Shown: positions 4,364 through 25,265 of the stretch, piece by piece | Numbering within the stretch: position 1 is the first letter of the stretch | Layout of the letters: each line of letters begins with the position of its first letter | Assembly (NCBI GenBank): GCA_934338765.1 | Contig: CAKRHL010000011.1 | Coordinates: forward strand, 1-25,932 | From: an uncultured Lachnospiraceae bacterium | GTDB lineage: Bacteria > Bacillota > Clostridia > Lachnospirales > Lachnospiraceae | Length of the DNA: 25,932 nt | Direction of reading: 5' to 3' | The notes under the pieces: model-generated | Told to the model about the DNA's origin: nothing | Database searches by the model: none | Seen by the model: only the letters and a program-made list of their open reading frames with translations | Program-made: the position numbers and the translations under genes

Positions 4364-5071
4364 TTATCGGAACATATAAGAGAAATACGCTTCCTTAAAG
4401 GCGGCGTAATTATTTCGGGAAATAGGAATATTTGTCCCGTTTTTGGTACTGATCTGAGTCTTGGTAAACTGTTCCACACAGTTTAGATTTACGATGTAGC
4501 TTCTGTGGCATTTGAAGAAACCCTTCTTCAGGCAGAAGATTTCCTCACATTTAGAAAAAAGCTCCCGTATCTCTAAGATCGTGTCGTTGGACAGGGATAC
4601 CAGGACTCGTTTGTTTTGTGCCTCCAGATATTCAACATCCTCCAGAGTGATCCGGCAGAAGCCGGTGCCCGTCTGTGCCGTAAATGACTCCGGGGAAGAG
4701 TGGGTTGAGGAGAGAAAGTCGTCCAGAACCCGGAATAAATGCTCTGACTCAATAGGCTTCATCAGATAATGGAATGCCTTTACCTCATAGGAATCAACGG
4801 CATATTCACGGGAGGAGGTCAGAAAGACGATCGGAACCGTCTGGTAATCCTGACGGAGTTCTCTGGCGGTATCCATACCATTGAGCAGAGGCATGATGAT
4901 ATCCAGAATGATCAGGTCCATACAATATGTCTGATGTGCCTGGATCAGATCATCCCCGTTGGTGAAATGATATAATGTTACATCGATCCTGTGCTGGTCG
5001 GCCCACTGTGTCAGAAGTTGTTCCAGTTCATTTATAAATTGAATCTCATCATCACAGATTGCTATTTTCAT
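4364..5071 (-). CDS. LytTR-family response regulator (AgrA-like)
   Basis: 235 aa. The N-terminal receiver has acidic pocket D7-D8, phospho-acceptor D57 in LIILD, T85 and K105 in LMKP. The C-terminal LytTR DNA-binding domain spans about residues 135-232, with LEDVEYLEAQNKRVLVSL and FFKCHRSYIVNLNCV as landmarks. It would be phosphorylated by the kinase encoded 20 nt upstream and regulate promoters carrying paired LytTR sites. The ribosome binding site GAGG lies 11 nt from the ATG. Its 3' end lies about 5 bp from the broken metal-ATPase fragment on the opposite strand, so transcription from the CsoR-controlled promoter would run antisense through it. Confidence 0.93.
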   Translation of the reverse strand: MKIAICDDEIQFINELEQLLTQWADQHRIDVTLYHFTNGDDLIQAHQTYCMDLIILDIIMPLLNGMDTARELRQDYQTVPIVFLTSSREYAVDSYEVKAFHYLMKPIESEHLFRVLDDFLSSTHSSPESFTAQTGTGFCRITLEDVEYLEAQNKRVLVSLSNDTILEIRELFSKCEEIFCLKKGFFKCHRSYIVNLNCVEQFTKTQISTKNGTNIPISRNNYAAFKEAYFSYMFR

Positions 5072-5091
5072 AATCCCGGTACCTCAAAAGC

Positions 5092-6360
5092 TTACACGAT
5101 AATTCTAAGTATAAATATATGGTTCAGTACAGAAAAGTGGTACTGACCATGTAGCTGCTCTACATAGTATACAATACTTTTAACTCCAATTCCATGCCCT
5201 TTTTGATCAGATGCAGGAATACCATCAATAAATTTTGGTGTTGAGTCAACGGGATTTTCAATTTCAAGCAGCAGCTGGTGATCCTTTTGGGTAAGAGAAA
5301 GCCGGGCCCATCGGTTGCCGGACTGCAGTTTTTCCAGAGCGTGCATGGCGTTTTCGAGGGCATTGGAAAGAATCGTGCAGATTGCAAGATCAGAGCAGGG
5401 GAGGGATTCTCCGGTCTGGATAGTGCAATGCAGGGTAAAGCCCTTGTCAGAAAAACGCATCTGATAAATAGAAATTACAGAATTGATCATTTCATTGCGG
5501 CTGTAGCGCTCAATGACCGTTTCGTCATAAGCCTCTCCGATCTCTTTGATATACTTCCGTGCCGGCTCCGTGGAATCCTCCTGCAGCAGTGTCAGCAGGA
5601 TATTCAGATGGTGCCGCATATCGTGGCGCAGGATGGACAGTTCCTGGCGGCTGTTTCGAACCTGATCGATCTCCTTCTGTATCGAATGAAGCTGGATCTC
5701 CATGAGCTCGCTGTACTGGCGGATCTCCTGTTTTTTTTCAAACTCCCTGTAGTATACCAGCAGAAAGATCAGATAGGCAATGCAGAAAGCAAAGCCCATA
5801 AACTCTACGACTGCCTTGTTGCCGGAGTAGAGCAGGCTGGAGAACTTGGTGGTCGTGTAGTCGAAAACATAATACAACAGAGGCAGAAAGCCGATCACGC
5901 AAAGCTCCCGCTTCTCCTTTGCAAAAATGGCGGCTGTTGTGCGGCAGACAAAACGGCATAGCAGTATAAAGGTTACAAAGGTCGTAACGATACGGGCGGT
6001 GTAATAGCACCAGTCCTGCCCGGTCAGGCTGAATACGAACATGCCGATCCATGTACTCACCTGGCAGCCCAGATATGCCGAAAAGACAGAAGTAAAGCAG
6101 GATAACAATGGATATTTATAATATAAATGAAGAAAAAGAATCAAAGGCAGATGGATGATCAGCGGATAGATCTGTCTGGCAAATACATCGCTGACCGTCA
6201 GGGAGAAGAAGAGATAGAGGAGTCCCTCGCAGCAGAAAAATAAAAAAAGCATACCACTATTCCTGCGGTTCTGCCGTATCCCAAGGAAAAAGGCGGAAAT
6301 ATAAATGCCGAATAATAACGTAGTAATATCATGTGTCATGGATAAAATTTCAACTAGCAT
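5092..6360 (-). CDS. Agr-type sensor histidine kinase with GHKL ATPase domain
   Basis: 422 aa. The N-terminal half has six or seven membrane segments (about residues 1-205), as in AgrC-type peptide-sensing kinases. A coiled-coil linker leads to the H-box LRHDMRHHLN with H246, then the N-box LSNALENAMHA (N333/N337) and the G-box GHGIGVKS at 388-395. Start ATG 6360 is preferred over ATG 6366 because it is 8 nt from GGAGG. It forms an operon with the LytTR regulator. No AgrB protease or AgrD propeptide is encoded in the flanks, so its signal is either made elsewhere or is not an Agr peptide. The neighbour transcribed in the opposite direction is a large secreted protein. Confidence 0.92.
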   Translation of the reverse strand: MLVEILSMTHDITTLLFGIYISAFFLGIRQNRRNSGMLFLFFCCEGLLYLFFSLTVSDVFARQIYPLIIHLPLILFLHLYYKYPLLSCFTSVFSAYLGCQVSTWIGMFVFSLTGQDWCYYTARIVTTFVTFILLCRFVCRTTAAIFAKEKRELCVIGFLPLLYYVFDYTTTKFSSLLYSGNKAVVEFMGFAFCIAYLIFLLVYYREFEKKQEIRQYSELMEIQLHSIQKEIDQVRNSRQELSILRHDMRHHLNILLTLLQEDSTEPARKYIKEIGEAYDETVIERYSRNEMINSVISIYQMRFSDKGFTLHCTIQTGESLPCSDLAICTILSNALENAMHALEKLQSGNRWARLSLTQKDHQLLLEIENPVDSTPKFIDGIPASDQKGHGIGVKSIVYYVEQLHGQYHFSVLNHIFILRIIV

Positions 6361-6389
6361 TCGCATTTCCTCCTTTATGTCATAAGTTG

Positions 6390-6418
6390 ATTATAAAAGA
6401 ATTTTATAGGAAATACAA
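6390..6418 (-). promoter_or_regulatory. Candidate promoter for the kinase-regulator operon
   Basis: On the minus strand TTGTAT (6413-6418), 17 bp, TATAAT (6390-6395). The -10 is perfect and the -35 weak. The same 180-bp intergenic region must carry the plus-strand promoter of the 6544 gene; TATACT at 6491-6496 is its best -10, without a good -35. Confidence 0.5.
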
Positions 6419-6543
6419 TGATATTCGGTGACCATTCACACCATATTTACGCCGTTCGCGCCAAAAACAGTAACAATAATGCAAAAATGTTATACTCATA
6501 TCAGTGGAGTTATGCAAACAATTTAAAACAAGGAGGAATATGC

Positions 6544-9500
6544 ATGAAAAGATTACTAATATGTTTCATGATGTTATTAAGTCTGACTGTGTTTATGCAG
6601 GTAACACCTGTAAGTGCAGCAGATGATCAGGAGGTAACGATCTATGACATGAGAAGTGATTATGACAGCAAGATCGTTGTACCTAATACGTTGCCAAGAA
6701 CGTATCAGATTCCCCAGAAGGGAGACGGTGTCAGCTATAAGGTAGTATCCGGAAGCAAATCCGTTGAAGTTTCTGATGCCGGTCTGGTGTCAGCCAAGAA
6801 AACCTACTGGAAAGTTATATCCGGAGGCTATGTCTATGTAGGAACGGCTGATGACCATGACTATTACACAATCTACAGCGGTGACGCAGAGGTTGAGATC
6901 ACGACGCCGGAGGGGACACAGACCCTGACGGTACATTTGCTCAATTACCTCACCATTTATCAGAATGATGTTCTGCAGAAGTATATTGACAAGAATATCA
7001 CAGAGGATATGAGCGATGATGAGCTGGCAGATGCGATCGCCAAATTCCCGGCAACATATGATTACGATAAAAACTATTCTACATTTCTGGACATGATCCT
7101 CAACGGCGGCGGTGACTGTGTGGCAAGCACACAGGCTATCATAAAGCTGGCAGAGAAGCTTGGCTATAAGGCATGGAGCCGTGATGGCAGCCGTGATGCA
7201 GGCGCAGGTTCAGCCCATGTCAATGCCATGGTAGATATCAATGGCCAGCTTTACCAGCTGGATGCAGGATATAATGAAAGTGTTGGTGCATCCGGATACC
7301 GGAAGTATGATGTGCAGAAGAGAAACTCTTTATTCAGCTATAAGCTTGTAGATGACGACCAACATGCATGTATCTTGTCCTATGATGCAAAGGACACCTC
7401 CGGTGTTGTGGAGGTACCGTCTGAAATTGACGGGTATCCGGTGACACAGATTGCATGGAGAGGTATGTCAAAACTGGAGTGTTCCAAGATTGTTCTGCCG
7501 GATACGCTGAAAACTTTAGATGCAGTATCCTTTTATTACTGCGACAAACTGAAAGAGCTGGAGATCCCGGCATCTGTTGAAGAGATCGGTTCCTCTCTCA
7601 TTCAGGGCTGCAGCAGTGTGGAGAAGCTTACGGTAGCAAAGAACAATGCAGCTTATATGTCTGAGGACAATGCAATCTACAGTAAGGACGGCACAACACT
7701 TGTCGCTGCGACAATGGTTTCTGAGTTTAAGATTCCGGATACCGTTACGGAGATTGGTCCGGGTGTATTTTTTGAGAATAAAAATCTCATCAGCATTGAG
7801 ATCCCGGCAAATGTAAAGAAGATATCCGATACGGCATTCAATAGCTGTAGAAATCTCAGAAGTGTACAGTTTTCCGAGGGCTTAAAGGAGATCGGTGAAA
7901 ACTGTTTCTGGGGAGATTCCGCCTTATCGGTCATCCGTATCCCATCTACGGTAACCAATATTGGATACGGTGCATTTCTTGCCTGTAAAGGACTGGTGGG
8001 AGCATATTTCTATGGTGATATTCCGGAGTTCCAGTCTACAATGCCAACGCGTGCAAACAACATCTTCAACAGCTGTGACAGTCTTAAGACGGCATATTAT
8101 CCAAAGGGCAATACGTCCTGGGAAAATGCCAGTGCCAAACTTCTGTCATATCAGGGAAATGCATCACTTCAATGGGCAGCATGGGATAAAGATGCAGCAC
8201 AGTCCATTTACGATGCAGAGATCACAGTCGCTGCAGGAAGGTATATATATACCGGCAGAGCATTTACGCCGGATGTGAAAGTGACACTGCAGGGAACCAC
8301 TTTATTAAAGGATACGGATTATGTTGTAAGATATTATAATAATGTAAACGCAGGTGCTGCATATGTGCAGATCTTCGGATGTGGAATTTACGAGGGTGAA
8401 AAGCAGACGATCTTCCAGATCGAAAAGGCAACATTGACCATTCGGGCATATCTGTCAGGAAAAGTGACGGTTGGTCAGAGTATCAGTTTTATCAGTATAG
8501 CACCATCCGGATATGACTATGAGTTTAGTTCTTCCTCAGATGAGATCGCAACGGTAACAACAGGTGGTGTGATCACAGGAGTAGCGCCGGGAGTAGTTAA
8601 GATCAAGATACGTTATCCGGGTGATGACAATTATCAGGCGGCAGAGGTAGAAAAGACCGTTACGGTAGTCAGGGATCCGTCTGCTACTGAGGCACCGGTT
8701 AAGACAGCAACACCGGGAGCAGTAACAACGCCAACACCGGGAGCTGTTAAGACACCGACACCGGGAGCGATCAAGACACCGACACCGGGAGCGATCAAGA
8801 CACCGGTACCGGGAGGCATCAAGACGCCGACGCCGGGAGCAGTTACCACAGCACCGGTTGAGAGCGGCAAGCCGGATAATCCGACCCAGACACCTGTAGA
8901 GAGCGACGAGCCGACAGCAACACCGGTTGAGAGTGAGGAGCCGGGTACACCGACAGCAACGCCGGGAGAGAGTAATACACCGGTTGTGCCAACAGCAGCA
9001 CCGGGAGAAAGCGACAAGCCGGTTGTGCCGACCCAGTCACCGGTAACGAGCAATAAGCCGGCTAATCCGACAAAATCTCCGGATGCAACAAAGACACCGA
9101 CCCAGTCACAGACACCAACGGCAACGAAAAAGCCAAGTACAACGGAAGATACCGGAAGTACCGTAGCGGTTGGAAAGACAGTTACCATCAAGAATGCAAA
9201 GTATCGTATTACAGGAAAGAATACAGCAGAATTTGTTGGACTTGTAAAAGGAAAGACTGTTAATATACCAAATACCATTACCGTGGGAGGGAAGGTTTAT
9301 AAGATAACCTCTATTGCAGCTAAAGCCTGCAGGGAGAATAAAAAGATCACGAAGCTTGTAATCGGAAAAAATGTCAAAAAGATTGGAAAAGAAGCGTTCT
9401 TTAACTGCGTGAAATTAAAGAACATTAATTGCAAGAGTAAGCTTCTGAAAGTCGGAAGTATTAAGAAAAATGCGTTTAAGGGAATAAATAAAAAGGTAGT

Positions 9501-9555
9501 TCTTAAGGTGCCGAAGGCGCAAAAGGTTCTCTACAAGAGCTTGTTTATCTTTTAA
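6544..9555 (+). CDS. Secreted surface protein: transglutaminase-like, LRR_5 (BspA) and Ig-like domains
   Basis: 1003 aa with a signal peptide (MKRLLICFMM... to about VSAAD, residue 26). In order: a transglutaminase/protease-like domain, with Cys-His-Asp triad C192 (GGGDCVAST), H225 (SAHVN) and D240 (YQLDAGY); BspA-type leucine-rich repeats at about 270-545, with repeated IPxxVxxIGxxAF units; a Y-x-G-x-x-x-TPxVxV beta module at 555-625; a Big2-like module at 632-710; a Thr/Pro linker at 715-873 with TPTPGAIK repeats; and a second LRR_5 block at 885-1003. No LPXTG motif or C-terminal anchor is visible, so it is probably secreted or held non-covalently. Start ATG 6544 follows AGGAGG; upstream in-frame codons lack a ribosome binding site. 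It may cross-link or trim extracellular or host protein, inferred from domains only. Confidence 0.88.
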   Translation: MKRLLICFMMLLSLTVFMQVTPVSAADDQEVTIYDMRSDYDSKIVVPNTLPRTYQIPQKGDGVSYKVVSGSKSVEVSDAGLVSAKKTYWKVISGGYVYVGTADDHDYYTIYSGDAEVEITTPEGTQTLTVHLLNYLTIYQNDVLQKYIDKNITEDMSDDELADAIAKFPATYDYDKNYSTFLDMILNGGGDCVASTQAIIKLAEKLGYKAWSRDGSRDAGAGSAHVNAMVDINGQLYQLDAGYNESVGASGYRKYDVQKRNSLFSYKLVDDDQHACILSYDAKDTSGVVEVPSEIDGYPVTQIAWRGMSKLECSKIVLPDTLKTLDAVSFYYCDKLKELEIPASVEEIGSSLIQGCSSVEKLTVAKNNAAYMSEDNAIYSKDGTTLVAATMVSEFKIPDTVTEIGPGVFFENKNLISIEIPANVKKISDTAFNSCRNLRSVQFSEGLKEIGENCFWGDSALSVIRIPSTVTNIGYGAFLACKGLVGAYFYGDIPEFQSTMPTRANNIFNSCDSLKTAYYPKGNTSWENASAKLLSYQGNASLQWAAWDKDAAQSIYDAEITVAAGRYIYTGRAFTPDVKVTLQGTTLLKDTDYVVRYYNNVNAGAAYVQIFGCGIYEGEKQTIFQIEKATLTIRAYLSGKVTVGQSISFISIAPSGYDYEFSSSSDEIATVTTGGVITGVAPGVVKIKIRYPGDDNYQAAEVEKTVTVVRDPSATEAPVKTATPGAVTTPTPGAVKTPTPGAIKTPTPGAIKTPVPGGIKTPTPGAVTTAPVESGKPDNPTQTPVESDEPTATPVESEEPGTPTATPGESNTPVVPTAAPGESDKPVVPTQSPVTSNKPANPTKSPDATKTPTQSQTPTATKKPSTTEDTGSTVAVGKTVTIKNAKYRITGKNTAEFVGLVKGKTVNIPNTITVGGKVYKITSIAAKACRENKKITKLVIGKNVKKIGKEAFFNCVKLKNINCKSKLLKVGSIKKNAFKGINKKVVLKVPKAQKVLYKSLFIF
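8700..8860 (+). repeat. Tandem 24-bp repeats coding TPTPGAIK
   Basis: About five near-identical 24-bp units (ACACCGACACCGGGAGCGAT then CAAG and variants) in the linker of the surface protein, followed by looser PVESxEPxTP units to about 9160. The unit is a whole number of codons, so copy-number change would keep frame. Confidence 0.8.
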
Positions 9556-14601: not shown

Positions 14602-15393
14602 ATGGGAAAGTATTTAATTGTTTCCAGAGTGGAGACACTCCGGGAGCATATGGCACTGAGCAGGCAATATGATGTTGGGTTTGAGATCAATGATTTCTTT
14701 GACCCGGAGGTGTTAGACGATCCGGAAAGACAGCAGAGGATTATAGAAGCGTATCTTGAAATGGGGCTTCCGGAGGGGAGCACGATGCATGGAGCGTTTC
14801 TGGATGTGGTGGTGTTCAGTCAGGATCCTCTGGTGTGTCAGGTGTCAGAACAGCGCATGAGACAGAGCATGGAGATTGCCAGAAAGCTACGGGTGAAGGG
14901 TGTGGTATTTCACACCAACGTCAATCCGATGCTTTCCTCCAGAGAATACGACATGCGGGCGATTGATATGACAACAGATTATCTCAGGATACTTCTGACC
15001 GATTTTCCGGACATTGAAATTTATCTGGAAAATATGTTTGATGCTTCTCCGGATATTATGGTAAGGATCTCGGAGAGACTGAAAGATTTTCCGAATTACG
15101 GAGTATGCTTTGATTATGCCCATGCGGTGATCTACGGTTTTCCCGTGGCAATATGGATCCGTCAGCTGGCACCCTATATGAAGCATATACATATTAATGA
15201 TAATGATCTGAAGCACGATCTTCATCTGGCACTGGGAAAAGGCAAGATCATCTGGAGTCAGTTTTTTGATTATTACGATACGTACTTTAGTAACTGTTCG
15301 GTACTGATCGAGACAACACCGCCGGAGGCGCAGAAAATATCATTGGAGTTTTTGACAGAGATGGAAAGGCATGGTTATTTATATGGAGAATAG
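14602..15393 (+). CDS. TIM-barrel sugar phosphate isomerase/epimerase-like protein
   Basis: 263 aa, of the xylose isomerase-like/AP-endonuclease-2 superfamily. Alternating beta strands and helices carry likely metal ligands: MHGAF near residue 56, YLENMFD near 143, CFDYAHA near 175, KHIHINDND near 200 and VLIETTPP near 240. These match the Glu/Asp/His/Glu ring of the family, which uses a divalent metal to isomerise or epimerise sugars or inositols. The real substrate cannot be told. ATG 14602 is preferred over ATG 14596 because of its spacing from GGGG. It lies 96 nt after pepD and overlaps the next gene by 11 bp, so it is the first member of a coupled run into the diguanylate cyclase and TIR genes. 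Confidence 0.8.
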   Translation: MGKYLIVSRVETLREHMALSRQYDVGFEINDFFDPEVLDDPERQQRIIEAYLEMGLPEGSTMHGAFLDVVVFSQDPLVCQVSEQRMRQSMEIARKLRVKGVVFHTNVNPMLSSREYDMRAIDMTTDYLRILLTDFPDIEIYLENMFDASPDIMVRISERLKDFPNYGVCFDYAHAVIYGFPVAIWIRQLAPYMKHIHINDNDLKHDLHLALGKGKIIWSQFFDYYDTYFSNCSVLIETTPPEAQKISLEFLTEMERHGYLYGE

Positions 15394-16393
15394 ACGGGTA
15401 TTAAATGCAGAGGAGCTGTTGGAAAAGATATTCTATTTTATGAATGAGATGGTAGACACAAAGGATTTTGGTTCCACGATCCTGCTTTTGACAGAGCTGG
15501 GGCGGACACTGGCCAACTCTGAGAGAGCCTCCTTCTGGTATTGGGACAGAGCCAAGAAACAGTACTGGACTCTGGTGGCATTAGACAGTCCCCGGATCGT
15601 GGTGCCGGAGGGCAGCGGCATTGTGGGAGCTACGATAACCGGCAACAAGACGATCCTGATCAATGATCCTTATCAGGATGAGCGTTTCAACCAGGAGGTG
15701 GACAAGGAGACCGGTTATCAGACCAGATCGATTCTCTGTATTCCGGTGACCAATTCCAAGGGAGAGGTTATCGGGGCATACCAGGCGATCAATAAGATGG
15801 ACGATCAGGGTTATTGGTATTTTGATGACAGGGACGAAAAGCGTCTGGCGATGGCTGCGGTATTTTGCGGTAAGACACTGGAGTCCCAGATCTTGTACAG
15901 TGAATCACAGCTGGATCAGCTGACCGGCTTAAAGAACCGCCGGGGATATTATGAATATTATGAAAAGAATATTCATCCATATCTGTTGAAGCAGTCCTGC
16001 TCCATTGTGATGGCGGATATTGACTTTTTTAAGCGGGTCAATGATACATATGGACATAATGCAGGGGATGTTGTGCTGAAATGTATCGCGTCGATCCTCA
16101 GAAATGCGGCAGGAGCCTCCGGCGAGGTGATACGGTGGGGCGGCGAGGAGTTTGTGATCCTGTTAAAGGATTGCGCTGTATCACAGGCCGCTGCATTTGC
16201 GGAGAGCGTACGCAAAAAGGTGGAGTCATCGATCTGCTATTTTGAAGATGTACCGATCCGCGTGACCATGTCGTTTGGGGCAAAGGAGCTGGATTCCCAT
16301 TTGTCACCGGAGGAAAATGTAAAGGGCGTGGATGAAAAGCTTTATGAGGCAAAAACGGCAGGACGCAACCGGGTTGCGGTGGATGAAATCTGA
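15383..16393 (+). CDS. GAF-GGDEF diguanylate cyclase
   Basis: 336 aa, soluble. A GAF sensor domain covers residues 12-168. The GGDEF domain at 172-336 has LDQLTGLKNRRGYYE, metal-binding D212 in ADIDFFKRVND, and active-site GGEEF at 253-257, so it should make cyclic di-GMP from two GTP. The inhibitory I-site RxxD, expected just before GGEEF, is absent (GASG there), so product inhibition by this route is unlikely. ATG 15383 overlaps the stop of the preceding gene; the ATG at 15371 is 1 nt from GGAAAGG and probably part of the extended ribosome binding site. The next gene, a TIR protein, starts 21 nt downstream. Confidence 0.92.
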   Translation: MENRRVLNAEELLEKIFYFMNEMVDTKDFGSTILLLTELGRTLANSERASFWYWDRAKKQYWTLVALDSPRIVVPEGSGIVGATITGNKTILINDPYQDERFNQEVDKETGYQTRSILCIPVTNSKGEVIGAYQAINKMDDQGYWYFDDRDEKRLAMAAVFCGKTLESQILYSESQLDQLTGLKNRRGYYEYYEKNIHPYLLKQSCSIVMADIDFFKRVNDTYGHNAGDVVLKCIASILRNAAGASGEVIRWGGEEFVILLKDCAVSQAAAFAESVRKKVESSICYFEDVPIRVTMSFGAKELDSHLSPEENVKGVDEKLYEAKTAGRNRVAVDEI

Positions 16394-16414
16394 TGTAGGG
16401 GGATGATTTTTGAT

Positions 16415-17428
16415 ATGGGAAAATCCGTTTTTATCAGTTACAGCTCAAAGGATGAGCGTTACATAAAGAAAATGATACAGATGCTGGAGAAAATGGGGAT
16501 TTCATACTGGATCGCACCGGATATGATACCGGCAGGATCAAATTATGCGAGGGAGATACCCAAAGCGATCAGGGATTGCGAGATATTTTTACTAGTGCTT
16601 TCCCAGGCATCACAGCAGTCTATCTGGGTTGAGAAGGAGATCGACAGTGCGATCTATTATCGCAAAACCATCGTACCGTTCCAGATCGATGACAGTGCCA
16701 TGACGGATATGTTTCGTTTTTATCTGAACAATGTACAGACAATACGCTGTGCAAACCGGCCCAAGGAAGCCATTGAGGAGCTTAAACAGCGGTTAAGATC
16801 TCTTCTTATGGGGCCCAAGGAGGTTGCGGGGAGAGCTGCCGGTCTTAACAGAGCTGTCCCAGATCATGGACAGGGCAGTGGATCAAAGGATAAGGAACCG
16901 GTGGCACAGAAGACGTCTGTACCGGACAATAAAAAGGAACCGGAACAGATGGCAGAGAAAGCAGTACCAAAAACGGGACAGAAGAAAGAGGCAGATGACG
17001 AGGAAGAAAAAACACCTTCTCCGAACCGGAAAAAGAGATCATCCTTTCTTCGTTCCAATGGTATCCCTACGGAGTGCCGGTACTGTGGGGGCGATGTAGA
17101 GAAAATATCCCAGGGAGTGTACCGCTGTAAGAAATGCGGCAAAGAGAATTATGATTATTTCAGGACAGTGCGTAATTATCTTCAAAAACATGGTGCAAAG
17201 CCTGCGATCATTATTGAGAGAGAAACAGGAGTACCAAGGTATGTGATCGAGCAGCTGATCTCTCAGGAGTATCTGGAGATCCCGAAGATGGAAACTGCCA
17301 GACTTTCCTGCTCCCGGTGTGGAGCGTCGATCCGGACGGGAACTCTGTGTGACCGCTGCAAGGCAATCGGCATCCGTGTAGGCAATTCTTCGGAAACGGG
17401 AGGATGGCGTTCTTCCAGACGAAGATAA
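16415..17428 (+). CDS. TIR-domain protein with two zinc ribbons and a helical DNA-binding-like module
   Basis: 337 aa, soluble. Residues 1-130 form a TIR domain: KSVFISYSSKDERY box 1, then IFLLVLSQASQQS and WVEKEID. The Trp-x3-Glu pair W71/E75 matches the catalytic-glutamate region of TIR NADases, so NAD cleavage or cyclic ADP-ribose-type signalling is possible. A charged linker (135-210) leads to a zinc ribbon (C221, C224, C238, C241). A helical segment at 246-290 (YFRTVRNYLQKHG, then ETGVPRYVIEQLISQEYLEI) resembles the HTH of YvyF-type flagellar-operon proteins, and a second zinc ribbon follows (C299, C302, C312, C315). The start is ATG 16415, 12 nt after AGGGGG. It lies between a GGDEF and a class III cyclase gene, which argues for signalling rather than a lone effector. 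Confidence 0.85.
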   Translation: MGKSVFISYSSKDERYIKKMIQMLEKMGISYWIAPDMIPAGSNYAREIPKAIRDCEIFLLVLSQASQQSIWVEKEIDSAIYYRKTIVPFQIDDSAMTDMFRFYLNNVQTIRCANRPKEAIEELKQRLRSLLMGPKEVAGRAAGLNRAVPDHGQGSGSKDKEPVAQKTSVPDNKKEPEQMAEKAVPKTGQKKEADDEEEKTPSPNRKKRSSFLRSNGIPTECRYCGGDVEKISQGVYRCKKCGKENYDYFRTVRNYLQKHGAKPAIIIERETGVPRYVIEQLISQEYLEIPKMETARLSCSRCGASIRTGTLCDRCKAIGIRVGNSSETGGWRSSRRR

Positions 17429-17502
17429 CAATGTATTTCAAAACGTTCTCTGCCGGGAAAGCCCGGGGCATGCAGCGGCAGGACGTTGGAATGGAGAAGA
17501 TC

Positions 17503-19023
17503 ATGGGGAGAAATATTTGGGTGATCGGCAATGATCGTCAGGAAATGATAGATGCACAGCGTAGGATCAATTCCACCGGAGGTATGCGGGCTGTCTGCAA
17601 GCTGTCTCTGGAGTCTGTGCGCAGAGCGATCGGGGAACGTGTCCTGGCGGAAGCGGCGGGGCAGGAGTGGCGTGAGATGCCTTCTCTGATCATTGTGGAT
17701 TACAATATGTCCCAAAAAGAGGACTTTGAAACGGTATCCTTTATAAAAAAACAAAAGGATCTTGCCGGAGTCCCTCTCTTTTTTATGACGGAAACAAGGA
17801 CAAAGGAGCTCGACAGGGAGTGTTACTCCTGGGGAGCTACCGTGGTTTTACATAAGCCCTTGTCCAGAGAGGGGATCATGCGTATTGAGCAGACTGCGTG
17901 GCAGCATGATGTCACCAAAAACTACGAAAAGCTTCTGGTACAGCAGGCAAATCATCTGCGGGAACAGGAAGAGATCGTGAAATTGAACCGGCAGCTGGAA
18001 GCGAGAAACAGCCTGCTGCGACAGGTGTTCGGACAGTATTTTTCTGATGATATATTCAATGAGATCCTGAAAAATCCCGAGGGAGCTGCGATTGGCGGAA
18101 AGAAGCGGGAGCTGACGGTTATGATGGCAGATCTCAGAGGCTTCACCTCGATCTCGGAGGGACTTTCTCCGGAAAAGGTTACAGATGTGCTGAATTATTT
18201 CTTTCAGAGTATGCTTCCTCCGTTGACGGAGCACAAGGGTACCGTGATCGAGTATCTGGGAGATTCGATTCTGGCTGTTTTTGGGGCGCCGATCGCTTCA
18301 GAGCACCAGACGGAAAATGCCATTGCGGCAGCGATCAAAATGCAGAATAATATGGAGCAGGTCAACGAATACTGCGTCCACAACGGATATCCGTTAATGG
18401 AAATAGGCATTGCGATCCATCGGGGAGAGGCATTTATCGGCAATGTGGGTTCGGAACAGCTGATGCGTTATAATGTGATCGGCAGTGTGGTCAATGAGTG
18501 TTCGCGGATTGAGAGCTTCAGTGTGGGAGGTCAGGTGCTGGCTTCCAAGGAGTGTCTGAGTCACATCAATGCTCCCGTGGAGATCTCAGACCGGCAGGAG
18601 ATTCAGGCGAAGGGACTGCAGTATCCTATTACCGTATGCGAGATAAGATCCATCCGGGGAGATTATGATTGCCACATCCGGGAGCAGAAAAATGACGTAT
18701 TATATCCGGTGGATCGGTGGGTGTTGTTTAATATGTATCCCATCGAGGAAAAGCTCATCCAGGATGTGTGTGTCACGGGGAGACTGTGCCGGTTCTCGTA
18801 CAAGAGAGCTCTGGTGCAGCTGGATGAAAAGGAGGAATATGATCTTCGTGTGGGGATGGATGTGGAGATATTTGCGGCAGGAGAGGACGGCAGGGCATTA
18901 TTCACAGAGATCTATGCCAAGATCATCGAGATCAGGGAGGGATTTTTAACCCTGCGCTTTACCCATGTAAATCGAAGCTTTCGCAGCTTTGCAAATCAGA
19001 TATGGGAGAAACAGGAGGAGTAA
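17503..19023 (+). CDS. Receiver-domain class III adenylate/guanylate cyclase
   Basis: 507 aa, soluble. The N-terminal CheY-like receiver (1-130) has phospho-acceptor D66 (LIIVDYNM) and K118 (HKP), but its first acidic pocket is weak (IGNDRQEM). A coiled coil (138-175) joins it to the cyclase homology domain (200-385): metal-binding D210 (MMADLRGFTS) and D254 (YLGDSILAVFGAP), and N331/R335 (VVNECSR) for the transition state. The purine-selecting positions are E250 and N324; Glu at the first is typical of guanylate cyclases, Lys of adenylate cyclases. A C-terminal beta-rich domain (about 410-505) is not recognised, though PilZ-like is conceivable. Start ATG 17503 follows GGAG with 6-nt spacing. 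It ends TAATG with the next gene's start. Confidence 0.88.
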   Translation: MGRNIWVIGNDRQEMIDAQRRINSTGGMRAVCKLSLESVRRAIGERVLAEAAGQEWREMPSLIIVDYNMSQKEDFETVSFIKKQKDLAGVPLFFMTETRTKELDRECYSWGATVVLHKPLSREGIMRIEQTAWQHDVTKNYEKLLVQQANHLREQEEIVKLNRQLEARNSLLRQVFGQYFSDDIFNEILKNPEGAAIGGKKRELTVMMADLRGFTSISEGLSPEKVTDVLNYFFQSMLPPLTEHKGTVIEYLGDSILAVFGAPIASEHQTENAIAAAIKMQNNMEQVNEYCVHNGYPLMEIGIAIHRGEAFIGNVGSEQLMRYNVIGSVVNECSRIESFSVGGQVLASKECLSHINAPVEISDRQEIQAKGLQYPITVCEIRSIRGDYDCHIREQKNDVLYPVDRWVLFNMYPIEEKLIQDVCVTGRLCRFSYKRALVQLDEKEEYDLRVGMDVEIFAAGEDGRALFTEIYAKIIEIREGFLTLRFTHVNRSFRSFANQIWEKQEE

Positions 19024-20072
19024 TGGGAGAAGAGAAAAAAACAAAATGGGAATATATACAGGATATGGGACATGATATGCTTCCCCGGGCAGAAATCTGC
19101 TGCAGAGACCGGGAAGAACAGCTGGTGGCGGCACAGATATCGGAGGAGCAGGCGGCGGACTTTCTGAAAAATTCAGAGACAGAGCAGGACAATGAAGTCT
19201 GGAATCCGGTCTGGCTGAGGAAAAAGCTCGATATACTCCGGGCAACCGGCAACCACTTTCTGCTGCTTTTATGGGGAGAGCATGAGGAAAAATGTCTTTT
19301 ATTTCTGAGTGATACAAAGCGGGTGCGTCCGTTAGAATTTCTGGATTATCTCATGCCGGAGTTTGGACTGATCCGGGGAGACGTGTCCTGTGCCAGCGTG
19401 CGGGTATCGTCAGTTATATTGAAGCTGCAGATGGAGGCACAGGGAACAGAGAAGACTATAGAATATCTGATGGATCAGGCAGAGTCCTATTTTCGGGACT
19501 GTGATTGGATCGATGCAAAGGAGTACGGAACATCTCACAGAGAAGAGATCAAAGAATTTGATTATTATCAGAAAAAAAGAGTGGCATGGGCCTATGTTAA
19601 GACAACAGATGTTGTGCCTGCCGGAAAGACCCTGTGGATACGGTCGCTGGAAAATGAGTCCGGTCTGGAGATCACAGCGGCGGAGGATACTTATATCATG
19701 ATCGGCTGCAAGGGCGAGATCTATGATATTGAGCGTCAGAAGTTTGAGAACAGCTATGAGATTACAAAAGAGCCATTGGATGTATTTGCGCAGATGATGG
19801 ATTTCTGGCCGGAGATTCAGAAGCTGCCGGAGCAGGAGTTTATCAGTATTGATGAATATGCCCATTTATGTTATCCGAAACAGGAGGCAGGGATTTTTGC
19901 CCGCCGTCTGGAAAAGAGGACCAAGATATTTCCGGTGGGCAAAAGCCACGAGTATTTCCTTGGCAGAAGGGGAGATTATATGGCGGTGCGGCCCGATGAT
20001 CTGACAGATATCTATGTGATCCGGGGCGATATTTTTGAGCAGACCTATCTATCCCAAAAATCGGACAGATAA
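19023..20072 (+). CDS. Unknown protein with two copies of a beta-rich module (PGDYG-like)
   Basis: 349 aa, soluble, no signal peptide. The first 170 residues are helical/mixed and unrecognised (GNHFLLLLWGEHEEKCLLFL is a buried strand pair). The rest holds two similar modules. The first, at about 190-260, ends in EDTYIMIGCKGEIYDIERQKF and ENSYEI; the second, at about 290-345, ends in GDYMAVRPDDLTDIYVIRGD and IFEQTY. The shared pattern D-Y-x-[MA]-x...[ID]-Y-x-I-x-x-x-x-F-E-x-[ST]-Y resembles the PGDYG domain, recalled rather than tested. Start ATG 19023 shares one base with the cyclase stop codon (TAATG) behind AGGAGG, so the two proteins are made together. It is probably a partner or effector of the cyclase. 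Its last 28 bp overlap the convergent helicase gene. Confidence 0.75.
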   Translation: MGEEKKTKWEYIQDMGHDMLPRAEICCRDREEQLVAAQISEEQAADFLKNSETEQDNEVWNPVWLRKKLDILRATGNHFLLLLWGEHEEKCLLFLSDTKRVRPLEFLDYLMPEFGLIRGDVSCASVRVSSVILKLQMEAQGTEKTIEYLMDQAESYFRDCDWIDAKEYGTSHREEIKEFDYYQKKRVAWAYVKTTDVVPAGKTLWIRSLENESGLEITAAEDTYIMIGCKGEIYDIERQKFENSYEITKEPLDVFAQMMDFWPEIQKLPEQEFISIDEYAHLCYPKQEAGIFARRLEKRTKIFPVGKSHEYFLGRRGDYMAVRPDDLTDIYVIRGDIFEQTYLSQKSDR

Positions 20073-22477
20073 TTGCCTATGGAGTCCGGGTTGACGACTT
20101 CATAAGGAAACCACTCCCTTGGAAATAATGATTGATAGCTGTTTTGCAGGAAACGTTCATCCAGCAGCAGGATGGCGCCCCGGTCGGAATCTGTGCGGAT
20201 CACACGGCCGGCAGCCTGCAGGACTTTATTCATGCCCGGGTACTGGTACGCGTAGTTGAAACCGGTACCCTTTTTTTCGTCAAAATAATTCCGAAAAAGC
20301 TCATTCCGGGTACAGACCATAGGGAGCCCTGTGCCAACGATCACGGCGCCGATCAGGCGGCTGTCCTTCAGATCGATTCCCTCGCCAAAGATACCTCCCA
20401 TCACACAAAGTCCCAGAGTGGTTTTGGAAGGTGTGTCCTTAAAATGGGACAGGAAGTCTTCGCGTTCCTTCTCAGTCATGGAGGTTTCCTGGATATAGAT
20501 ATCTGCGCATTCCCGGCAGTATGGAGCGTTTTCGATATATCCACGGACATCCTCCAGCATACGGTAGGATGGGAAAAAGATCAGGTAATTTCCCGTTTTT
20601 GACTGAATAAAACGGACAATGTAATCACTGATGCGCTGATATTCCGCCGGGGTACGTCTGGTATATTTGGTGCTTACATCCCTTGCGATCATCAGAAGCC
20701 GGTTGGAGGAGGAAAACGGCGACGGAGCATAAATGGCATAGTCATCCTCTCGGCCTGCCAGCTGGTCGCGGTAATATTGTACCGGAAGCAGTGTTGCGGA
20801 AAAGAAGACGGCGCAGCGTCCCCGTTTCAGGTAGCTGTCCAGATTGCCGGAAGGATCCATGCACTGGAGATGAAGATAAAAGGCTCCGGCCGGATCATAA
20901 TCTCCGTAAATAATATATTTTTCATCAATTGTTTCGTAAATCGTCAGAAAATACCGAAGTTCAAAATAAAATGCCAGTACCTCTTCTCTCGCCTCGCTGT
21001 CCAGAGGAAGCGCTGCGGGATCCCCCGGCGTAATGTCAGGAAGTGCAGTGTAATCTCCGGAGTCCGTCCGGCTGTGGAGATATTCTTCCAGCAGCGAAGA
21101 GAGACGCAGTGCCTTCATGACAAAGGGCTCAATCTCAATGGAATCGTAGATCTTTTGCTCCTCACATTCCCGTTTTAATTCCAGAAGCTCTTTATTGCAG
21201 CGTTCCAGACTGCGGGCGATTTTGCGGGAGTGGGTTGTCATGATCTTTTTGATCTTGAGAAAATCCTCCTTGACCAGTGTGGAAGAGTACATTTCCCGGG
21301 CGCGGTCCACCAGATTGTGTGCCTCGTCGATCAGGAATACGTAAGGATTCTCTGTCTCCTGGGCAAAGAAGCGTTTCAGGCATGCGGTGGGATCAAAGGC
21401 GTAGTTGTAGTCACCGATGATGGCGTCGCACCAGAGGCTGACATCCAGTCCCATCTCAAAGGGACATACATTGTGCTTTTCTGCATAGGTCAGGATGTGC
21501 TCTCTGGAAATGAAATCCTCATGGGTGAGTACGTCATATACGGCGTTGTTGATCCGGTCAAAATGCCCCAATGCTCGGGGACATGCCTGAGGGTTGCACT
21601 GTGGTTTGTCTAAGATGCAGATTTTTTCCTTGGCGGTCAGTGTAATATATTTTAAGCGCATCCCCTGATCTGCAAGGATGGAGAAGGTTTCCTCTGCGAC
21701 GGTTCTCGTAATGGTTTTGGCCGTGAGATAGAAAATCTTCTCGGTGATGCCCTCTCCGATGGATTTGACCGTGGGAAAGATGGTGGAGATTGTCTTTCCT
21801 ACGCCGGTAGGTGCTTCGATGTAGAGGCGTTTTCTGCGCAGTATGCTCTGGTAGACACCCTTCACCAGATTTTTCTGACCTTCCCGGTACTCAAAAGGGA
21901 AGGTTATCTCACGGATGGTGGCATTGCGCTTTTCCTGCCATCGGATCTCCCAGGCGGCCCATTTGGCATACTCCTGCACCAGATCCAGAAACCAGTTTTC
22001 TATCTGGCGGAAAGGAATACGTTCTTCAAAGAGACGGACCTCCTCTGTGGGGATATGACAGTAGGTCATCCGGATACCGATATCCTTAAGCTTATTCTCC
22101 TTTGCATAGATGTAGCCGTAGCACATCGCCTGTGCTTTGTGTACGAGGACCGGCTCCTTCAGACGGGAGACATGGCGGTAGATCCCCTTGATCTCATCGA
22201 TGGTCATGCCGCTGCCGTCCTTTTCCGGGAAAATGCCGTCGGCACGCCCCTCCACCATAATCTCCAGTGACACCTCATCGTAGGTGACGGGAACAGTGAT
22301 GGACAGAGGAACCTCTGCCTGGTAGGTAGAACCCATGCGCTTTTGGAGCTTTTTGTGGATCCTTGTGCCCTCCTGCATGGCATCAGGGTCGGCAAGTCCG
22401 CTTTCGGAGGCGACAATATCGCCACTTCGCAGAATAAACTCTACGAGGTTACGTACGGAAATTTTGACGCAGTGCAC
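20045..22477 (-). CDS. XPD/DinG-like iron-sulfur DNA helicase with N-terminal Cas4/RecB-like nuclease
   Basis: 810 aa. Residues 1-190 carry a PD-(D/E)XK nuclease core: H41 (GTRIHKKLQ), D80 (GRADGIF), E95-x-K97 (IDEIKG) and HKAQAMCYGYIYA at 113-125. The helicase follows: Walker A APTGVGKT at 222-229, iron-sulfur cysteines C287, C294, C299 and C338, DEAH at 384-387, and motif VI QAAGRVIRTDSDRG near the end. It should unwind DNA with 5'-3' polarity like XPD/DinG and may also cut it, acting in repair or on branched or RNA-containing substrates. The start is GTG 22477, fixed by the excellent site AGAAAGGAGG 8 nt upstream. It converges on and overlaps the signalling cluster, with no terminator between. 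An Mrr-type nuclease gene lies upstream on the same strand. Confidence 0.9.
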   Translation of the reverse strand: MHCVKISVRNLVEFILRSGDIVASESGLADPDAMQEGTRIHKKLQKRMGSTYQAEVPLSITVPVTYDEVSLEIMVEGRADGIFPEKDGSGMTIDEIKGIYRHVSRLKEPVLVHKAQAMCYGYIYAKENKLKDIGIRMTYCHIPTEEVRLFEERIPFRQIENWFLDLVQEYAKWAAWEIRWQEKRNATIREITFPFEYREGQKNLVKGVYQSILRRKRLYIEAPTGVGKTISTIFPTVKSIGEGITEKIFYLTAKTITRTVAEETFSILADQGMRLKYITLTAKEKICILDKPQCNPQACPRALGHFDRINNAVYDVLTHEDFISREHILTYAEKHNVCPFEMGLDVSLWCDAIIGDYNYAFDPTACLKRFFAQETENPYVFLIDEAHNLVDRAREMYSSTLVKEDFLKIKKIMTTHSRKIARSLERCNKELLELKRECEEQKIYDSIEIEPFVMKALRLSSLLEEYLHSRTDSGDYTALPDITPGDPAALPLDSEAREEVLAFYFELRYFLTIYETIDEKYIIYGDYDPAGAFYLHLQCMDPSGNLDSYLKRGRCAVFFSATLLPVQYYRDQLAGREDDYAIYAPSPFSSSNRLLMIARDVSTKYTRRTPAEYQRISDYIVRFIQSKTGNYLIFFPSYRMLEDVRGYIENAPYCRECADIYIQETSMTEKEREDFLSHFKDTPSKTTLGLCVMGGIFGEGIDLKDSRLIGAVIVGTGLPMVCTRNELFRNYFDEKKGTGFNYAYQYPGMNKVLQAAGRVIRTDSDRGAILLLDERFLQNSYQSLFPREWFPYEVVNPDSIGNYLSDFWDR

Positions 22478-23291: not shown

Positions 23292-25265
23292 ATGAAAAAG
23301 GGTTATAAGGTGATCGCAGTGACTCTTAGTATGGTGCTGGCATTGACCGGCATTGTTGGAGAAGCTTCTGTGAACAGCCAGGCAAAAGCCAAAATTAGAC
23401 TGAACAAGAAAAAGGTAACATTGACTGTAGGAAAAAGTGTGAAGCTTAAGCTCAAGGGAACCGGTCAAAAAGCAAAGTGGTCATCCAGTAAAGAAAGTGT
23501 TGCTATGGTGAGCAGCACAGGTAAGGTTATAGCTGTGAGTGTGGGAAAGGCCAAAATAACGGCTAAAATTAAGAAAAAGAAATATTCCTGCAGTGTAACG
23601 GTTAAAAGGAAAGCAACAGATTCAGAGGTATTTTATACTGCAATACCGACAAAGACACCGGTTGTTACCAAGGTGCCGGCAACAACGGCGCCTGCAGGTA
23701 AGACGAATGCTCCGTCAAATACAAATAACCCGGCAGGAACCGATAAGCCAAATGGTTCTAATGCACCGGGAAAGACAGAAACACCGGAAGTAACAAAGAC
23801 GCCGGTTAAGACAGAGGAACCGGGAGAGACAGAGACTCCGGTTAAAACAGAGGAACCGGGGGAGACAAAAGCGCCTGTTAAAACTGAAAAGCCAGAGGAG
23901 ACAAGGACACCGGCCAAGACAGAGGTGCCGGAAGTGACCAGGAAACCGGAAAAAACAGAGGAACCGGAAGAGACAATATCACCGGTTAAGCCGAGAGTCG
24001 TATATCAGTTTGTCGGAAGCGTAACAGGCTGGGCGGGACCGGATACCTATCCATCTTCCAAGGATCATGAGCAGGGAGACGGCGAATCCAACTCCGTAAA
24101 TGAGAGCCTTACAAACATCAAGGTAGAACTCGGCAGCTATAAGTGTGGTCTTGAGCTTATGAACAAATACAGTGACAACTTTACCGGAGCATCCAATGAG
24201 CTGTCACAGATCATTAAGGGAATGACAGATCCTGTCATCCGTGTAACATTGGAAAACGGTGGTACCGCATCCGCTTATAACTGGTATGATGAGCTGAAAT
24301 GCCCAAGCGGAAAGGAAGTATCTCTGACCCAGGAATTCCTGAGAAATGAGTACGTTGGTCTGTTCGGAAATGATGATACCATCACAAAGGTAGAGATCTA
24401 TGACCGTGCCGCTACAGTAGTAGAGCCGGAGCAGCCGGATGAGACCAAGGAGCCGGAGAGGACAGAGGAGCCGGAGAGAACAGAGGCACCGGAGGAGACC
24501 AAGAAGCCGGAGAAGACAGAGACACCGGAGGAGACCAAGAAGCCGGAGAAGACAGAGGCACCGGAGGAGACTGAAGAGCCGGATGAGAGCTATACGCCGG
24601 ATATTCCGGTTGTAACACCGGGAACAACGGATGTGGAGAATGAAACGCTGGCAAGTAATATGAAGGCATGCCTTCAGAAGCTGGCCGATGGTCATGTACT
24701 GATGAAGCTGGTCAATAATAATGATGTGACAGTAAATTGGTTTGCAATAGAAATCACTTGGAAGGATGCCCAGGGAAATGCTTTTACCTGGGAGACTTCG
24801 GATGGTGAGACATACACATATACGACTTCTTTGGAGGGATATTTCCTGGAAAAGAACGGATCGTACTATAATTCTTCCTATCTTGATTCCTTAGGCTTTG
24901 AAGACAAGATAGATCTGTCAAAGAGTGAGATTAGCATTATGGTAGGCGAGGATGTCAGTGAAACTCCTTTAACCTCCAAGATATCTGTGACAAGCAAGAA
25001 AGAAGATGCGGATGGATGGATTGCGGTTACATATGATGTTAAGAATGATGATTCAAAACGAGCCTCTGTGGATCTGTGTATATTGTATAAGGATGCTCAG
25101 GGAAATGTAATCGGAGCTAAGGCGAGTTCTTTTTGTGTGGATTCGGGAGAAACCTATAATGAAAGTCAGTCAGCCCCATATGATGAGAACACGGATGAAT
25201 ATATCGACTTTGCATCCTATGAGGTGTATATCAACGGATACATGACAGAGGCTTCTGAAAGCTAA
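23292..25265 (+). CDS. Secreted Big2-domain protein with Pro/Thr/Glu/Lys repeat linkers
   Basis: 657 aa. A signal peptide (about 1-32, ending near VNSQAKA) is followed by one Big2 Ig-like domain at 34-112 (LNKKKVTLTVGKSVKLKLKG, then SSTGKVIAVSVGKAKITAK). A linker of ET/EP/VKT repeats (about 120-235) leads to a beta-rich domain at 237-376 beginning VVYQFVGSVTGWAGPDTYP. A second linker of PEETKKPEKTE repeats (380-435) precedes a C-terminal domain (450-657) with WFAIEITWKDAQGN and LCILYKDAQGN, two similar strands suggesting an internal duplication. No LPXTG or SLH motif is visible. The central and C-terminal domains are not recognised; carbohydrate binding would be a guess. ATG 23292 follows AGGAGG at 8 nt. 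It appears monocistronic, with hairpins downstream. Confidence 0.85.
   Translation: MKKGYKVIAVTLSMVLALTGIVGEASVNSQAKAKIRLNKKKVTLTVGKSVKLKLKGTGQKAKWSSSKESVAMVSSTGKVIAVSVGKAKITAKIKKKKYSCSVTVKRKATDSEVFYTAIPTKTPVVTKVPATTAPAGKTNAPSNTNNPAGTDKPNGSNAPGKTETPEVTKTPVKTEEPGETETPVKTEEPGETKAPVKTEKPEETRTPAKTEVPEVTRKPEKTEEPEETISPVKPRVVYQFVGSVTGWAGPDTYPSSKDHEQGDGESNSVNESLTNIKVELGSYKCGLELMNKYSDNFTGASNELSQIIKGMTDPVIRVTLENGGTASAYNWYDELKCPSGKEVSLTQEFLRNEYVGLFGNDDTITKVEIYDRAATVVEPEQPDETKEPERTEEPERTEAPEETKKPEKTETPEETKKPEKTEAPEETEEPDESYTPDIPVVTPGTTDVENETLASNMKACLQKLADGHVLMKLVNNNDVTVNWFAIEITWKDAQGNAFTWETSDGETYTYTTSLEGYFLEKNGSYYNSSYLDSLGFEDKIDLSKSEISIMVGEDVSETPLTSKISVTSKKEDADGWIAVTYDVKNDDSKRASVDLCILYKDAQGNVIGAKASSFCVDSGETYNESQSAPYDENTDEYIDFASYEVYINGYMTEASES
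23770..23990 (+). repeat. Tandem repeats coding PVKTEEPGET-type units
   Basis: Ten-codon units of about 30 bp, six to seven imperfect copies, forming the first linker of the secreted Big2 protein. Confidence 0.7.
24435..24590 (+). repeat. Tandem repeats coding PEETKKPEKTE units
   Basis: Near-identical 36-bp units (a 12-codon PEETKKPEKTET/A unit plus shorter PERTEE units). Two copies at 24490-24570 differ at only a few bases, so recent duplication or slippage is likely. Confidence 0.75.

Follow-up and report, generated by a model that had tools for sequence, protein, structure and literature searches.

A conserved nucleotide-signalling gene cluster of flagellin-bearing Lachnospiraceae: a possible cyclic-nucleotide relay with a TIR-YvyF protein as output

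Five genes, all on the + strand and spanning positions 14602-20072 of a 25,932 nt stretch of DNA from an uncultured Lachnospiraceae bacterium (GCA_934338765.1, contig CAKRHL010000011.1, positions 1 to 25,932, forward strand; hereafter the window), were found to form a real, conserved nucleotide-signalling cluster. In order, they encode an EndoIV/CbiR-like TIM barrel, a GAF-GGDEF diguanylate cyclase, a TIR protein with a YvyF-like C-terminus, a class III nucleotide cyclase and a pseudo-DHH protein, the product of open reading frame 4 (ORF4). An earlier note on this DNA had pointed out the last four of these genes, and their strand, coordinates and motifs were all present on re-reading of the window. 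We consider the cluster to be probably regulatory rather than defensive, and tentatively read it as a chromosomal module of flagellin-bearing Lachnospiraceae that may relay one cyclic nucleotide into another, with the TIR-YvyF protein as output. A relay in which the cyclase makes cyclic GMP (cGMP) and the GAF-GGDEF protein responds to it is possible, though by no means assured.

An alignment scan with ORF4, using one genome per species, returned 27 loci, labelled as Lachnospiraceae, Clostridium, Clostridiaceae or Eubacteri(ace)ae metagenome-assembled genomes (MAGs), with the exception of a Bacteroidales locus (L009). The closest genome found was the MAG of an uncultured Lachnospiraceae bacterium (genome G001, locus L001), whose ORF4 was 98% identical and whose flanking genes were shared. 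So as not to select by ORF4, a sample of 397 genomes, drawn evenly from the family of G001, was searched with an alignment of the TIR protein, and a match spanning both the TIR and YvyF-like parts was found in nine of them (G001, G002, G004, G412, G129, G257, G279, G018 and G291); in G129 and G291 the match left the last ~40 of 306 positions uncovered. This test is partly dependent, G001 being its centre and G001, G002, G004, G412 and G129 having contributed rows to the TIR alignment; those five were already known from the ORF4 scan, and the other four carriers were new. The cyclase gene adjoined the TIR gene in 9/9 carriers, and ORF4 came next in 9/9, in G018 as a fusion with the cyclase. When the same 397 genomes were searched with ORF4 instead, exactly the same nine were returned at E <= 1.8e-96, and 58 others matched at 5.8e-55 or weaker, mostly through open frames of ~500 amino acids (aa), the length of a DHH phosphoesterase; of these weaker matches, the one domain-scanned was that of G129 (L014). 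The cluster is conserved, neither scattered nor peculiar to a single strain, the two findings that, according to the earlier note, would have refuted it.

The 27 loci and the four new ones gave 29 evaluable loci, L017 and L023, which lie at contig ends, being left out of linkage counts. The TIR-cyclase-ORF4 core order was kept in 29/29 and the GAF-GGDEF gene was adjacent in 22/29, while the EndoIV-like gene lay directly upstream in 21/27 loci with enough upstream sequence. Fusions joined the EndoIV-like protein to the GAF-GGDEF protein in L013 and L027, and the cyclase to ORF4 in L018, L022 and L055, as well as in protein P0115, perhaps of the L018 lineage. A class-wide search with the cyclase alignment found 2/331 genomes, one being the centre G001 and the other matching only positions 170-434 of 503.

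Within the window, the EndoIV-like gene (14602-15393) overlaps the diguanylate cyclase gene by 11 nt. The stop of the latter (16393) is followed after 21 nt by the TIR ATG (16415), and the TIR stop (17428) after 74 nt by a cyclase ATG at 17503, with an in-frame ATG at 17491 also consistent with the orthologues; TAATG at 19021-19025 joins the cyclase stop to the ORF4 start. The two gaps and the TAATG overlap, re-counted here, are those given in the earlier note. A promoter and terminator scan gave no clear excess over shuffles, and both + strand promoter-like sites fell within ORF4, an outcome that would be compatible with a single transcript. In the window and six loci, Rfam at its gathering threshold gave no c-di-GMP (cyclic di-GMP) riboswitch, and only a thiamine pyrophosphate (TPP) riboswitch (L010) and a tRNA (L026).

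The cyclase gene (17491..19023, alternative start 17503) was compared across 31 sequences, from 30 loci and the window. Both metal-binding Asp residues and the transition-state N/R pair were kept in 31/31, and so was E at the first purine-specifying position, which in the window is Glu283 (numbered from 17404; codon 18250..18252). In Synechocystis Cya2, the closest solved relative, a guanylate cyclase becomes an adenylate cyclase through the exchange E488K (PMC5995499; here and below, cited papers are drawn on in excerpt). Further class III cyclases gave 15 matches in the module genomes, and the six examined all had K at the first and T at the second purine position; 18/31 module genomes had no other class III cyclase match. 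At residue level this supports the prediction of a guanylate cyclase of Cya2 type. Among the cyclases elsewhere in module-carrying genomes are those at L100, L101, L102 and L103, of ~600 aa and with the adenylate-type K/T residues; Pfam finds a CHASE2 domain in L100, and the other three look alike.

The earlier description of this protein as a receiver-linked class III cyclase was borne out for the cyclase. Its receiver matched Pfam at 27.2 bits, under the cut-off of 30.2, with the phospho-acceptor Asp kept in 30/30 rows covering that part, window included (the L023 row being partial), and the description had overlooked a C-terminal PilZ fold (18673..19020). This fold was found by structure only; Pfam gave no match in C-terminal pieces from the window and L006, and one irrelevant weak match in that from L010. 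The PADLOC profile PycC matched the cyclase at 1.7e-19, as is to be expected for class III cyclases generally. At L054 (9082-11703), a seven-transmembrane hybrid histidine kinase with receiver and Hpt domains lies directly upstream of TIR-cyclase-ORF4, at the place of the GGDEF gene; it is possible that kinase and module make up a phosphorelay, although the cyclase receiver there lacks its acidic pair.

The diguanylate cyclase gene (15383..16393) encodes a GAF domain (15491-15877) and a GGDEF domain (15908-16372) with an intact GGEEF, before which no RxxD was seen, in agreement with the claim that the I-site is absent. GGEEF was intact in 19/19 aligned sequences and also in L053, L055 and L056. 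Among solved structures, the GAF domain matched those of the cyclic-nucleotide phosphodiesterases PDE5, PDE2A, PDE10 and PDE6, the CyaB2-type 1ykd, and 4mcw, and by these similarities it is tentatively assigned to the PDE/CyaB cyclic-nucleotide type. The N, K, F and D of the motif NKxnFx3DE were kept in 19/19. The orthologue of this gene at L108 (2224-4107) is a fusion with a metallo-beta-lactamase-superfamily domain that weakly resembles Apyc1. At L057 (6397-8029), close to a contig end and excluded from the module counts, a GAF-GGDEF protein with a degenerate YHDDEF site is followed by a TIR-less YvyF-like protein, an arrangement that is possibly an older form of the GGDEF/YvyF pair.

The TIR gene (16415..17428) encodes an N-terminal TIR domain (~16427-16783), a hypervariable linker and a C-terminus (~17066-17377) that the earlier note had called a zinc ribbon; a zinc ribbon is there, as part of a C-terminus that is YvyF-like as a whole, with zinc ribbon, helix-turn-helix (HTH) and zinc ribbon. 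The W-x-x-x-E motif was found as claimed, in the form W-V-E-K-E (W75 and E79, counted from 16403), and both residues were kept in 26/26 sequences (25 loci and the window). A catalytic Glu with an upstream Trp is the sequence criterion of a TIR NADase, and cleavage of nicotinamide adenine dinucleotide (NAD) is predicted. The domain scan matched no model of a cyclic-nucleotide-binding domain (CNBD) in this protein. In the closest genome, a stand-alone YvyF-like gene, identified without a TIGR03826 scan of its own, has a CheY-like gene, a weakly FlgJ-like gene and two genes of the FlgEFG family within ~5 kb. In L056, the gene immediately before that of the module's diguanylate cyclase (7302-8720) encodes a second TIR protein (TIR and DUF6273).

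ORF4 (19023..20072) is a relative of the DHH phosphoesterases without their catalytic domain, which supersedes its earlier labelling as a protein of unknown function. The description as a double beta-module protein fits its two C-terminal PGDYG-like beta modules (~19554-20054), and leaves out the N-terminal half (~19056-19502), which has a DHHA1-type fold; since the fold-search matches cover residues 23-166, that search is not informative on the C-terminal modules. DNPDAD and GGGH occurred in 0/120 ORF4 homologues, against 113/120 and 119/120 DHH relatives respectively, and on this ground ORF4 was rejected as an active phosphoesterase. Pfam, PADLOC and PHROGs gave no strong match to ORF4, and a BFVD search gave matches to uncharacterised viral proteins. 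At L014 (11834-13333), ~4 kb downstream of the module, a DHH-DHHA1 phosphoesterase carries both ORF4-type C-terminal modules. It had 3817 relatives at E <= 0.001, and among the 120 listed the organisms given were Clostridia, Lachnospiraceae or Acetatifactor. This suggests that a protein of the L014 type is the likely origin of ORF4.

The gene before the diguanylate cyclase gene (14602..15393), taken in the earlier note for an isomerase, encodes instead an EndoIV/CbiR-like protein (Pfam AP_endonuc_2). Nine positions that we take to be the EndoIV-type metal ligands (H63, H104, E143, D171, H174, H197, D206, H208 and E237) were invariant in 17/17 sequences, and the nearest solved relatives were TTHB071 and MJ1311; on these grounds a sugar isomerase was rejected. 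From its sequence, the protein is a candidate metal-dependent phosphodiesterase.

The carriers are gut and rumen bacteria with flagellin genes. All 31 ORF4-carrying genomes had a flagellin match, 30 over the cut-off and G477 under it. In the family sample flagellin was found in 213/397 genomes as against 9/9 module carriers (hypergeometric P = 0.0034, relatedness being ignored). Trees were built on 27/31 genomes, leaving out G485, G488 and G491 (no RpoB match) and G482 (RpoB fragment only), and those of the cyclase, TIR and ORF4 were mutually consistent, with 0-2 conflicting supported splits of 11-12.

The relay could be imagined as follows. A signal at the degenerate receiver, together with ligands of the PilZ-fold and pseudo-DHH parts, would set the activity of the cyclase, of which ORF4 might be a nucleotide-sensing subunit, as its fusion to the cyclase and its lost catalysis would suggest. 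The cyclase would then make cGMP, judging by its E/N site and the contrast with its paralogues, and cGMP would bind the GAF domain of the diguanylate cyclase and set c-di-GMP synthesis, a step with support at the level of the family. The EndoIV-like protein, on the basis of its fusion and metal ligands, may act as a hydrolase on the cyclic mononucleotide, or else on a product of its breakdown. Lastly, through the TIR-YvyF protein, the consumption of NAD or a product of the TIR would act on gene control, most likely that of motility. Beyond cGMP synthesis and GAF gating, the steps are drawn from linkage and folds, and that from the TIR protein to its target is the weakest of the relay.

A number of findings weigh against this scheme. 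The diguanylate cyclase is missing from 7/29 loci, and a full-length orthologue (E <= 1e-20) was present elsewhere in three of those genomes and in none of the other four, which are MAGs and perhaps incomplete; the relay therefore cannot be the whole function of the module. The second purine position of the cyclase is N in 31/31 sequences, and not G as in Cya2. The acidic pair or pocket of the receiver is mostly lost, L054 included, and the PilZ fold lacks the classical c-di-GMP-binding motifs RxxxR and [DN]xSxxG, most orthologues having SxKRA instead. PDE5 headed the list of GAF matches because two of its GAF domains were summed; scored as single domains, 4mcw reached 98.5 bits against 75.9 for the first GAF of PDE5, and so the similarity does not establish cGMP binding. 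We take 4mcw to be of HD-GYP type, and by its name it is no cyclic-nucleotide enzyme. The last E of NKxnFx3DE was found only in the window and L001 among the 19 sequences. The TIGR03826 match by which the TIR protein is YvyF-like, at 56.5 bits and E 2.9e-15, lies under the curated cut-off of 124.15 bits. Finally, of the 16 supported splits of the RpoB tree, 8-9 are contradicted by the module trees. The latter being in agreement with one another, either the module has passed between related bacteria as a whole or there is mis-binning in some MAGs; simple vertical inheritance of a housekeeping kind was rejected on account of the conflict.

The earlier note had left open whether the cluster was a regulatory module or a TIR-based defence system. 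In the latter case infection would turn on the cyclase, its product would activate the TIR protein, and NAD depletion would stop the cell, in the manner of Pycsar or Thoeris. A TIR domain with intact W and E shares a unit with a class III cyclase, the PADLOC profiles PycC and ThsB (the latter at 2.9e-11) match them, the TIR linker is hypervariable, and the module is patchy (9/397 genomes) and moves as a unit against RpoB, all of which count in favour of defence. Nevertheless, we regard anti-phage defence as unlikely. PycTIR is built of CNBD and TIR (PMC11224242), whereas here the TIR domain is N-terminal and no CNBD was found. The carriers match flagellin without exception. Among PADLOC matches of the five proteins scanned, the EndoIV-like protein being outside that scan, there was no ThsA or CD-NTase, and we know of no such defence system with diguanylate cyclase and EndoIV-like genes. 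ORF4 had no match among plasmid records and was encoded by no viral contig, and among phage records the TIR protein found a single one, covering 30% of the query. The flanks were surveyed as 144 ORFs of 21 loci. Some of these matched PADLOC models at 1e-15 (mad3 in 4, ZorD in 2 and others singly, among 25 of 37 listed), and the second TIR gene adjoins the module in L056; however, the Pfam families, among the 25 of 122 listed, were mostly metabolic, transport, two-component and chemotaxis ones, with Response_reg (6), MatE (5), Fe-ADH, ABC_tran and MCPsignal (4 each) and AAA_21 in 3, and by these annotations the flanks do not look like defence islands. A regulatory role fits better with this picture, with the cyclic-nucleotide GAF and with the flagellar-type domain on the TIR protein.

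A regulatory cluster could also consist of two independent units under one promoter, EndoIV-like with GAF-GGDEF and TIR-cyclase-ORF4, in which case cGMP would never reach the diguanylate cyclase. The constancy of the core against the 22/29 of the diguanylate cyclase, the four genomes without its full-length orthologue, and the fusions, which stay within the two units and never cross between them, are in keeping with such a division. It is, however, rather improbable given a PDE/CyaB-type GAF beside a predicted guanylate cyclase in 22/29 loci, and 18/31 module genomes in which no other class III cyclase was matched. Alternatively the relay would be the same, with cyclic AMP (cAMP) or a pyrimidine cyclic mononucleotide as the product bound by GAF. 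The N at the second purine position, unlike Cya2, would allow for this; some cyclases with guanylate-cyclase-like residues make cAMP (CyaG of Arthrospira), and the GAF domain also matches 1ykd. The precedent of Lcd1, described below, uses cAMP as well (PMC8846402). Against it stand the E kept in all 31 cyclases, at a site whose E confers GTP use on Cya2 (PMC5995499), and the K and T of the six paralogues examined, and we consider a relay by a product other than cGMP distinctly doubtful.

Elsewhere in the window, a DinG/Rad3-like helicase gene with a weak N-terminal PD-(D/E)XK match (20045-22477, - strand) is convergent with ORF4, with a 3' overlap of 28 nt, and is also found in L001 and L002. 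A response regulator and histidine kinase pair (4364-6366, - strand) appeared LytTR/AgrC-like by eye. Two long proteins (6418-9555 and 23292-25265), whose repeats are Thr/Pro-rich and Glu/Thr/Pro-rich, were secreted-looking by eye.

No description of this composition, of which the earlier note had known none, was found among the papers listed in searches of the open-licence part of PubMed Central (PMC), nor was one of its TIR-YvyF/receiver-cyclase-PilZ/pseudo-DHH core. In its fullest form, which we put forward as a long shot, the proposal would be of a signalling system not described before, and perhaps of the first pathway in Clostridia to use cGMP. Its receiver-cyclase-PilZ enzyme would be held by a nucleotide-sensing pseudo-phosphodiesterase and feed a diguanylate cyclase gated by cGMP, and an NAD-cleaving TIR protein with a flagellar-type zinc/HTH domain would act in motility gene control and not in immunity. 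If true, this would give a cGMP pathway to a bacterial lineage of animal guts, join cGMP, c-di-GMP and NAD chemistries in one unit, place a TIR protein outside defence and provide a case of a phosphoesterase fold put to another use after the loss of its catalytic half.

Some known systems share features with the module. Pycsar with PycTIR likewise combines a class III cyclase with a TIR protein (PMC11224242), but the module's TIR protein carries a linker and a YvyF-like part in place of the CNBD, and three more nucleotide-related genes accompany the pair. The DHH-DHHA1 phosphoesterases with a PGDYG-like tail, some of them named NrnA by the source, share ORF4's DHHA1-type fold and its two C-terminal modules, and differ in having the DHH domain and GGGH. 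Cya2 (PDB 2w01) represents the closest solved cyclase family and has the same Glu at the first purine position; it is CHASE2-linked with G at the second position (PMC5995499), whereas the module cyclase has an N-terminal receiver-like domain, a C-terminal PilZ fold and N. Lcd1 of Leptospira is, like the module's enzyme, a GAF-GGDEF diguanylate cyclase and is activated by a cyclic mononucleotide, in this case cAMP as against the predicted cGMP, the comparison being by protein and not by gene linkage (PMC8846402). A parallel in gene linkage is XC_0250/XC_0249 of Xanthomonas campestris, where, as is proposed for the module, a class III guanylate cyclase is linked to a GGDEF protein regulated by a cyclic mononucleotide (PMC3770947). 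XC_0250 lacks the N/R pair that the module cyclase keeps. The Xanthomonas proteins have a cyclic-mononucleotide-binding-domain sensor, and TPR on the cyclase, in contrast to the GAF, receiver and PilZ fold of the module, and the excerpted description names no TIR, PilZ fold, EndoIV-like or pseudo-DHH protein (PMC3770947). In that pair cGMP raises c-di-GMP synthesis (PMC3770947), and by this analogy the cGMP to c-di-GMP logic proposed for the module is one already known from Xanthomonas.

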